64,000 nucleotides of DNA from Faecalibacterium taiwanense (lineage in GTDB: Bacteria; Bacillota; Clostridia; Oscillospirales; Ruminococcaceae), in contig NZ_CP155552.1 of the NCBI RefSeq assembly GCF_036632915.2, positions 2,418,001 to 2,482,000 on the forward strand, in the 5' to 3' direction. Both the position numbers and the translations under genes were made by a program. Below, one piece after another: positions 17,095 to 36,154 of this stretch. Every line of letters begins with the position of its first letter. Position 1 is the stretch's first letter. The notes under the pieces are model-generated. The model was not told the DNA's origin, did no database searches, and worked only from the letters and a program-made list of their open reading frames with translations.

Positions 17095-17230
17095 GAAACC
17101 CTCCTGAAATAAATCCTTACAGGAACGGACAACCCGGAGGGAAGGTTACTTACCTACACCGTGCGGTGTAGACGGCTGGGCTACCTACCAGCTCTGGCAT
17201 CTCTCAGAAAGAAATGCGTTGCGTTTTTAT
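17095..17230 (-). promoter_or_regulatory. Structured leader, candidate yjdF-type riboswitch
   Basis: Upstream of the YjdF-family gene the minus strand holds a gene-free leader of about 130 bases with several stems. CTACACCG/CGGTGTAG is a perfect hairpin around 17155-17173. GAGCTGG and CCAGC flank a GTAGGTAGCC block, and a CCTTCCCTCC stretch lies before the ribosome site. Family knowledge links yjdF genes to a riboswitch of similar size. I could not match the consensus by eye, so this is a candidate only. Confidence 0.45.
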
Positions 17231-17353
17231 CCTGCTTTTATTATATAAAGCACATCCCTGTGCATTATATCTGCCTTAATTGGTTTTCCAAGTGAAGTAT
17301 ACCACACTCGTGGTCAAATGACCACCCATATATACGAGAATTTGGCCGTTTTA

Positions 17354-34286: not shown

Positions 34287-35285
34287 TTATTTTACATAGC
34301 CAAGGGTCGCAGCCATCACGGCCTTGATGGTGTGCATCCGGTTCTCGGCTTCGTCGAACACGATGCTCTGGGGGCCTTCAAACACTTCATCGGTCACTTC
34401 CATGGCATCGCGGCCAAAGCGCTCGCCCATCTCCTTGCCCACGGTGGTCTTGTGGTCGTGGAAGGCGGGCAGGCAGTGCATGAACACAGCGTGCAGGCCT
34501 GCAATGTCCATCAGCTGCTGGTTGATCTGGTAGGCGGCAAGGTCGTTGATGCGCTCAGCCCACACCTCCACCGGCTCACCCATGGACACCCACACATCGG
34601 TGTACAGCACGTCGGCACCCTTGGCGGCCTTGGCGGGGTCCTCCTCAAAGGTGAGGGTGGCACCGGTCTCGGCAGCGATCTTCTGGCACTCGGCCACGAG
34701 GGCAGCGTCCGGCTGGTACTTCTTGGGTGCACAGGCGGTGAAGTTCAGGCCCATCTTGGCGCAGCCCACCATCAGGCTGTTGCCCATGTTGTAGCGGGCA
34801 TCGCCGAAGTAAACGAAGTTGATGCCCTTCAGGTGACCAAAGTGCTCCCGGATGGTGAGGAAGTCGGCCAGGATCTGGGTGGGATGGAACTCGTTGGTCA
34901 GGCCGTTCCACACCGGCACACCGGCGTAGTGGGCAAGGTCTTCCACGATCTGCTGGCCATAGCCGCGGTACTCGATGCCATCGAACATGCGGCCCAGCAC
35001 ACGGGCAGTGTCGGCGATGGACTCCTTCTTGCCGATCTGGCTGCCGGACGGGTCAAGGTAGGTCACTTCCATGCCCAGATCGTGGGCAGCGACCTCGAAG
35101 CTGCAACGGGTGCGGGTGGAGGTCTTTTCAAAGATCAGGGCGATGTTCTTGCCTGCCAGCTGGTCATTGTGGCGGATGCCGGCCTTCTTTTTTGCCTTCA
35201 GGTCTGCGGCAAGGTCCAGCAGTTCTTCGATCTCGGCAGGGGTGTAGTCCAATAGCTTCAAAAAGCTGCGGTTCTTCAGACTCAT
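34287..35285 (-). CDS. argF: Ornithine carbamoyltransferase
   Basis: A 332-residue cytoplasmic enzyme that makes citrulline from ornithine and carbamoyl phosphate. The carbamoyl-phosphate motif [11 protein letters not shown] is near residue 56; [11 protein letters not shown] near 133 and MHCLPAFHD near 272 (the catalytic Cys motif) are intact. Length matches the family. The start has GAGAGGGAAA upstream. No other arg genes are adjacent, so whether it works anabolically or in the arginine deiminase direction (ArcB) cannot be settled from context. Confidence 0.95.
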
Positions 35286-35362: not shown

Positions 35363-35391
35363 TTGCAATACCCTGTCGGATATGCTATACT
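35363..35391 (+). promoter_or_regulatory. Promoter of Fst-like peptide gene
   Basis: TTGCAA (35363-35368), 17 bp and TATACT (35386-35391), 47 bp ahead of the start codon at 35439. Confidence 0.7.
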
Positions 35392-35438
35392 GGCTGTGCT
35401 GCCCTTCTCCATTCTGGCAACAGAAGGGGGTGGATACC

Positions 35439-35537
35439 GTGGACACCATTCTAACCAATTTTCTGGTGGCTGTCGCAGCACAGGTAGCTGCACACTTCCT
35501 GTGCAAGTGGCTTGAGAGTCACCGCAAGGGCAAGTAA
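35439..35537 (+). CDS. Fst/Ldr-like type I toxin peptide
   Basis: A 32-residue peptide starting at GTG 35439, with AAGGGGGTGG upstream. It has a hydrophobic helix (ILTNFLVAVAAQVAAHFL), then CKWLE and a basic SHRKGK tail. Fst of Enterococcus is 33 residues with the same plan. A terminator follows directly, and a convergent promoter produces an antisense RNA with matching repeats. Toxicity is inferred from architecture. Confidence 0.75.
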   Translation: MDTILTNFLVAVAAQVAAHFLCKWLESHRKGK

Positions 35538-35541
35538 GCAC

Positions 35542-35586
35542 AAAAAGAACCCTCTCGGAGCTGCAACTCTGAGAGGGCTCTTTTTT
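35542..35586. terminator. Shared bidirectional terminator of Fst-like locus
   Basis: AAAAAGAACCCTCTCGGAG, loop CTGCAA, CTCTGAGAGGGCTCTTTTTT. T-runs lie on both strands, with two mismatches in the stem. Confidence 0.88.
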
Positions 35587-35623
35587 GTGCGTGGATACAA
35601 TGGAATGTTCTAACCAACTTCCT
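35542..35623 (-). ncRNA. Candidate antitoxin RNA, par RNAII-like
   Basis: The transcript predicted from the 35630-35657 promoter is about 80 bases. It carries complements of both repeat blocks near its 5' end and shares the terminator with the peptide gene at its 3' end. The repeats would pair with the toxin's ribosome-site region and block translation. Confidence 0.7.
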
Positions 35624-35629
35624 ACCCTT

Positions 35630-35657
35630 AGTATATGCAATCCCACACAAAAGTCAA
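35630..35657 (-). promoter_or_regulatory. Promoter of antisense RNA (Fst-like locus)
   Basis: On the minus strand TTGACT (35652-35657), 16 bp and TATACT (35630-35635). No minus-strand gene follows before the shared terminator. Confidence 0.8.
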
Positions 35658-35674: not shown

Positions 35675-36154
35675 TCACAGCTCCAGCTCTGCCTTCCGTC
35701 CGGTGGACTGATAGGCAGTCAGCTTCACGCCGGCCTTTTTGAACATGAACCGCGCCGCCACGCTGGAATCGCTGTCGTGGTACTTGTCGCCGTAGTACAC
35801 CACCTCGGCAATGCCCGACTGGATGATGGCCTTGGTGCACTCGTTGCAGGGGAACAGCGTCACGTACACCCGCGCACCTTTCAGGTTATTGTGGGCGCTG
35901 TTGAGGATGGCGTTCAGCTCGGCGTGGCACACGTACATATACTTGGTGTCCAGCGGTGCGCCCTCCCGCTCCCAGGGCATCTCGTCGTCGCTGCAGCCAA
36001 TGGGCATACCGTTGTAGCCCAAGGACAGAATTTTGTTTTCCGAGCTGACGATGCACGCGCCCACCTGACTGTTGGGGTCCTTGGAGCGCATGGCCGTGAG
36101 CAGCGCAATGCCCATGAAATATTCATCCCAGTTGATGTAATCCGTGCGTTTCAT
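35675..36154 (-). CDS. dCMP/cytidine deaminase family protein, ComEB-like
   Basis: A 159-residue zinc enzyme that deaminates dCMP to dUMP for thymidylate synthesis. The zinc ligands are HAELNAIL near residue 77 and [11 protein letters not shown] near 103. The start ([20 protein letters not shown]) and length match ComEB/dCMP deaminases. The start is preceded by AAGGAGCATACC. It is apparently monocistronic, downstream of the Fst-like locus on the other strand. Confidence 0.92.

Follow-up and report, generated by a model that had tools for sequence, protein, structure and literature searches.

The window, a 64,000-nucleotide stretch of Faecalibacterium taiwanense DNA, contains next to argF a small cassette that, judged by its sequence, is very probably a type I toxin-antitoxin system working like the enterococcal par locus. 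Three observations carry this reading: the anatomy of the locus, its recurrence, and the matching of the repeats at each locus with their own partner. Its relatives number well over a hundred and come from bacteria of the gut, from plasmids and from phage sequences.

Anatomy of the cassette

The cassette is flanked by argF and by a second minus-strand gene, which we take to be deoxycytidylate-deaminase-like. The features, numbered from the first base of the window, are as follows.

34287-35285, minus strand: argF, one flank of the cassette
35363..35391, plus strand: toxin-mRNA promoter, TTGCAA-17-TATACT with extended -10 TGCTATACTGG, matching the consensus at 9/12
35399..35438, plus strand: leader, in which a hairpin (CCCTTCT...AGAAGGG) may cover the Shine-Dalgarno
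35424-35429, plus strand: Shine-Dalgarno AAGGGG, nine bases ahead of the GTG
35430-35443, plus strand: repeat block 1, toxin copy GTGGATACCGTGGA, after the Shine-Dalgarno and spanning the start codon
35439..35537, plus strand: 32-residue toxin gene with GTG start, encoding a hydrophobic stretch, KWLE and a basic tail
35449-35464, plus strand: repeat block 2, toxin copy TTCTAACCAATTTTCT, about codons 4-9
35542..35585, both strands: shared bidirectional terminator, a 44-base inverted repeat flanked by an A-run and a T-run
35540..35624, minus strand: predicted antitoxin RNA of ~80-85 nt, its ends placed from the promoter and terminator positions
35591-35604, minus strand: repeat block 1, antisense-RNA copy GTGGATACAATGGA
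35608-35623, minus strand: repeat block 2, antisense-RNA copy TTCTAACCAACTTCCT, near the expected 5' end of the RNA
35630..35657, minus strand: antitoxin promoter, TTGACT-16-TATACT, 10/12 consensus, convergent
35675-36154, minus strand: the presumed deaminase-like gene, other flank of the cassette

The earlier note had described a 32-residue gene, a convergent promoter, a shared terminator and a pair of repeats kept in order, and both the coordinates and the fold scores agree with that description. The copies of block 1 are 86% identical at a spacing of 161 and those of block 2 are 88% identical at a spacing of 159, with their order kept, and the terminator arms (35542-35563 and 35564-35585) are 86% complementary. 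The longest reading of the toxin frame in the ORF listing is a 51-residue ORF at 35382-35537. Compared with dinucleotide shuffles, the folding of the sense strand (35398-35587) gave z = -5.0 and that of the antisense strand (35623-35535) z = -7.7. The repeat score of the window's own pair is 30, which was reached by 0 of 500 shuffles (p 0.002). The 64-kb window has 45 small ORFs of about 24-46 codons whose Shine-Dalgarno matches at 5 of 6 positions or better; a single one of them, the cassette locus, has an antisense promoter scoring 10/12 or more in range, and it also has the repeats. Promoter-like sites in the 801 bases scanned numbered five vs 0.6 expected, three of them falling outside the cassette reading. 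The layout around 35439-35657 is not due to chance. The relatives likewise have a near-consensus antisense promoter at a similar distance from the toxin stop codon, and many genus loci also share an extended -10 with the pattern TGNTATACTG, mostly beside a weak -35.

Pairing of the Shine-Dalgarno in the window leader was 0.86 vs 0.61 in shuffled sequence. For a 5' stem hiding the Shine-Dalgarno, the values against shuffled upstream sequence were 0.72 vs 0.67 in the genus and 0.58 vs 0.58 in the family; such folds are present, at levels not above the shuffles. No Rfam model matched the cassette locus at gathering level, and weak matches to His_leader and a microRNA model lay over the terminator hairpin. 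Elsewhere in the window, a yjdF (azaaromatic) riboswitch was identified at 17109-17240 on the minus strand (Rfam RF01764, 58.7 bits).

Both strands of the cassette are predicted to be transcribed. The sense RNA would encode a 32-residue peptide with a single helix, probably located in the membrane, and the strong convergent promoter would yield a short antisense RNA ending in the common terminator. The two RNAs would be complementary at the terminator and at both repeat blocks, and pairing of the blocks would mask the bases that follow the Shine-Dalgarno, the GTG itself and roughly codons 4-9, and thereby block translation. Upon loss of the cassette or reduced synthesis of the antitoxin, the putatively toxic peptide would be made.

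Matching of the repeats across relatives

In the repeat test, the toxin start region was aligned with the antisense 5' region and scored against shuffles, with p<0.01 taken as a pass. The first set comprised 76 distinct hits, from which two lying inside long unrelated frames (L056 and L024) and four without a usable start (L090, L113, L018 and L128) were dropped. Of the 70 loci that were left, 55 have a strong antisense promoter and 15 do not. All 55 promoter-bearing loci passed the repeat test (33/33 in Faecalibacterium and 22/22 elsewhere in the family), and a locus's own pair came out on top of its group at 28 of 33 genus loci and at 21 of 22 family loci; the remaining six are near-copies of each other. 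The sequence of the repeats varies among loci, so both copies change together. Of all the evidence, this own-pair matching speaks most strongly for an action of the antisense RNA on the toxin start.

A further 91 hits comprised 59 with a strong antisense promoter and 32 without. The repeat test was passed by 57 of the 59, and the two failures (L240 and L194) have short, probably misplaced starts; two loci without a strong antisense promoter, L243 and L217, also passed (p 0.002 and 0.006 respectively). A third group was chosen by toxin sequence alone from the best 80 of 208 loci, of which 7 duplicates, 2 cut loci and 1 without the motif were left out; in the resulting 70, which include some close relatives, the test was passed by 58. 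A promoter of at least 10/12 was present at 30/70 of these sequence-picked loci from the best 80 of 208, compared with 0/70 unrelated segments. Upstream control segments passed the repeat test in 4/67 cases, which makes it somewhat lenient at p<0.01. The earlier note's proposal of a par/RNAII-like layout is strongly supported across relatives by these passes (55/55, 57/59 and, within the best 80 of 208, 58/70).

Six of the 12 failures among the 70 sequence-picked loci (best 80 of 208) are of the Selenomonas type, in which the peptide is kept (L259, L273, L293, L321, L323 and L325, the last failing narrowly at p 0.022). Four other Selenomonas-type loci (L270, L299, L303 and L317) passed. Regulation in the repeat-failing Selenomonas-type members may be different. 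A few extra residues stand between the helix and the WL motif at L114, L115 and L130, where repeats and promoter are present.

Predicted RNA duplexes gave the same kind of comparison in energy terms. Over 112 loci, all preselected by the promoter rule and 57 also by the repeat test, the mean was -38.1 kcal/mol for own pairs vs -18.8 for cross pairs, and the own duplex was the strongest at 86 of the 112. At the window locus the own duplex reached -43.1 vs -36.5 for the best cross duplex. The strongest cross-duplexes averaged -26.4 within genomes (66 pairs) vs -25.6 between genomes (462 pairs); in the three identity bands open to testing, the difference fell short of significance. Predicted cross-talk among copies that share a genome is thus not weaker than among copies of different genomes, which leaves selection for their mutual insulation unsupported.

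The peptide and known type I systems

The par locus (fst/RNAII) of Enterococcus faecalis pAD1 and of its chromosomal homologues, as described by Weaver (2020; PMC7472228), has convergent promoters with a bidirectional terminator, two repeat blocks placed at the toxin start and in the antisense part, and a GUG-initiated peptide of about 33 residues in which a tryptophan lies between the helix and the charged tail; each of these is matched by sequence in the window cassette. Unlike par, the window cassette has a toxin that is unmatched by Fst models and lacks the P/D/S/TXXXG motif, and its terminator loop shows no U-turn by eye. The same paper places the helix motif in the majority of Fst toxins and describes the U-turn of the terminator loop as not universal. 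The window peptide reads AVAAQ in place of the motif, and no YUNR was seen by eye in its terminator loop, CTGCAA. Among the relatives, the motif occurs within the first 25 residues in 45/112 and the U-turn in 23/112 toxin-strand loops.

The toxin consensus, SVAAxVxxYYICKWLD, leads into a charged tail of mainly basic residues; the C-terminal part of the window peptide reads ...CKWLESHRKGK, its tryptophan standing between hydrophobic helix and charged tail. The tryptophan column is invariant in two alignments (A1, 18 rows; A3, 45 rows) and at least 90% conserved in a third (A2, 49 rows). Over 425 genus pairs pN/pS was 0.39 in a 16-codon core and 0.69 in the N-terminal codons, and a second estimate for the toxin was 0.32; these figures lean towards purifying selection because the loci were chosen by protein similarity and the pairs are near saturation.

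Searches of the window peptide against Pfam and NCBIfam returned nothing at E<=10 (the HMMER filters drop many weak matches), and a profile search of PDB chains likewise gave no match at E<=10. Fst_toxin (PF13955) was above its cut-off in 0/31 genus genomes and 0/299 phylum genomes. The comparison with the Fst/Ldr family that the earlier note had proposed therefore found the window peptide itself unmatched, with weak similarities among 45 wider members: 6 matched the NCBIfam Fst model NF033608 (best E 0.0014, cut-off not given) and 8 the Ldr model PF13940 (best E 0.042). The control of Ldr loci is closer to that of hok/sok (PMC7472228). In genome G818, three loci (L251-L253) matched Fst_toxin with 28.1, 27.1 and 24.6 bits, below the Pfam cut-off of 36; they share the repeat plan of the cassette (p 0.002 each), and one Fst_toxin-like locus of this genome lies ~500 bases from L205, a member of the window's family whose repeats were seen by eye. 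The term 'Fst-like' used in the earlier note thus holds for the cassette plan and fails for the toxin sequence. By its sequence, the predicted toxin is a separate clade, of the Fst kind in layout and outside the curated Fst family.

The type I toxins of Clostridium difficile are small single-helix peptides opposed by a convergent antisense RNA (PMC6563280), like the pair predicted here. They differ from the window cassette in their size of 50-53 residues and in an extended region of complementarity, and sequence matches to them are weak. In a rival mechanism of this or the TxpA/BsrG type, the antisense RNA would overlap the toxin mRNA extensively at its 3' end and act through RNA degradation, and the repeats would be incidental. 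In its favour, the NCBIfam model CD_typeI_toxin (NF047374) matches 22/45 wider members at E<=1 (best E 3.5e-4). Against it, the 60-bit equivalog cut-off of that model was exceeded in 0/31 genus genomes, and when ten members were scored singly, two matched it (16.8 and 15.1 bits vs the cut-off of 60) and none matched Fst. The overlap expected between the two RNAs here extends little beyond the terminator, and the repeats follow each locus's own toxin start, which makes such a mechanism very improbable and favours the par-like one.

Genomic setting and distribution

The position of the cassette between argF and the presumed deaminase gene would suit a regulatory RNA pair for either gene, domesticated at this site. 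The site itself argues against this. From 31 genus genomes 30 deaminase loci were taken, 27 of them readable through to argF, and the cassette is intact at 1/27 readable sites, that of the window. At 18 sites the gap between argF and the deaminase gene is just 80-124 bases, including a cassette-free gap of 102 bases in the same-species genome G061. In addition, the window's own genome carries two further cassettes elsewhere (L002 and L003), both passing the promoter and repeat tests. Regulation of argF or the deaminase gene is consequently highly unlikely, and the addiction cassette remains the preferred reading. The cassette is accessory at the argF site; the earlier note's placement 'in core chromosome' was right for the flanking genes and not for the cassette.

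Traces of loss and replacement were found at the site. In G029 (L018), the first half of the toxin has been lost with its start, and the terminator, the antisense promoter and, by eye, the antisense-side repeat are kept, and the site in G005 resembles a deletion scar by eye. In G022, G011 and G015 the site is occupied by a different, mutually similar insert resembling a small RNA or peptide gene, and other inserts are present in G020, G016 and G019; apparently, it is receptive to elements of this kind. The G022 insert (L064:2176-2313) contains a hydrophobic and charged ORF of 45 residues, which we take to be TxpA-like and which matched no Pfam family over the cut-off. Similar stretches are present in L068 (G011) and, by eye, in L070 (G015), and the ORF listing shows no equivalent ORF in the L068 insert. 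A rearranged remnant was noted in G028 (L131/L029, contig C44 near 58200), ~8 kb from the deaminase gene, in which the first half of a family toxin is followed by an inverted stretch that by eye is almost the same as the antisense part of the window locus. The earlier note had named in advance, as an observation that would count against its reading, the loss of frame and repeats in relatives that keep the intergenic region. Such loss is seen at the argF site; it leaves the reading standing, as the genus retains both the frame and the repeats at 32 further loci.

Within the genus, matches at E<=0.01 were found in 10/31 genomes by the genus alignment search. Ten of the matches are in genome G011, where nine were analysed and all nine passed. 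In evenly drawn, overlapping samples that included the window's own genus, matches within the cut-offs applied were present in 14/126 genera of the family sample (21/247 genomes), 8/148 genera of the order sample (16/295 genomes) and 10/267 genera of the phylum sample (14/398 genomes). Genome G742 has four cassettes inside 1.3 kb, and 4/4 pass. A scan of named genomes (best 80 of 208 loci) adds Blautia, Butyrivibrio, Selenomonas, Phascolarctobacterium and others.

Mobile elements also carry the cassette. IMG/VR contigs contributed 32 loci, and proviral host flanks may be part of these contigs. At E<=1, the window peptide had tblastn matches on 233 plasmid records, of which 197 are from Enterococcus (weak matches), with no annotated gene under the plasmid matches among the 20 listed (the gene table being incomplete). 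One relative, on the Enterococcus faecium plasmid NZ_CP096212.1 (L243:1495-1605), has repeats at p 0.002 and no annotated gene. The cassette and its repeats were also found on two small plasmids of uncultured bacteria, on a plasmid of oral Mogibacterium and on an inovirus from rodent faeces. Its presence at accessory sites, on plasmids and on phage contigs fits a selfish or stabilising element better than a regulator of argF. Another role for the peptide, secreted or signalling and under antisense control by happenstance, is the least probable alternative: the window peptide, whose toxicity is a prediction, is unmatched by any toxin model, yet carriage on phage contigs and plasmids, and the decay in G029 with the toxin start destroyed and the antisense side left, fit an addiction toxin.

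With confidence only slightly above even, we favour a broader picture, in which a par-type clade would extend across the Bacillota outside the curated toxin families. In it, the toxin start and the 5' end of the antisense RNA would change in step, giving every locus a recognition code of its own, and a single genome with its plasmids and phages could harbour several cassettes with no cross-protection between them.

A review (PMC6563280) reports a survey in which, apart from new candidates and the C. difficile systems, known type I toxins had homologues in no more than two Clostridium species; commensal Clostridia are nevertheless named among the holders of Fst by Weaver (2020; PMC7472228). Among titles and the openings of abstracts, no paper on such cassettes in Faecalibacterium was found; some members may have been listed earlier (Weaver, 2009; Fozo, 2010; Kwong, 2010). 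The weakly matching Enterococcus plasmid records, 197 in number, suggest one more maintenance element to annotate, and more than 100 natural repeat pairs form a data set on the specificity of antisense RNAs. If the reading is true, type I addiction cassettes would be recurrent in Faecalibacterium (10/31 genomes) and across gut Clostridia.
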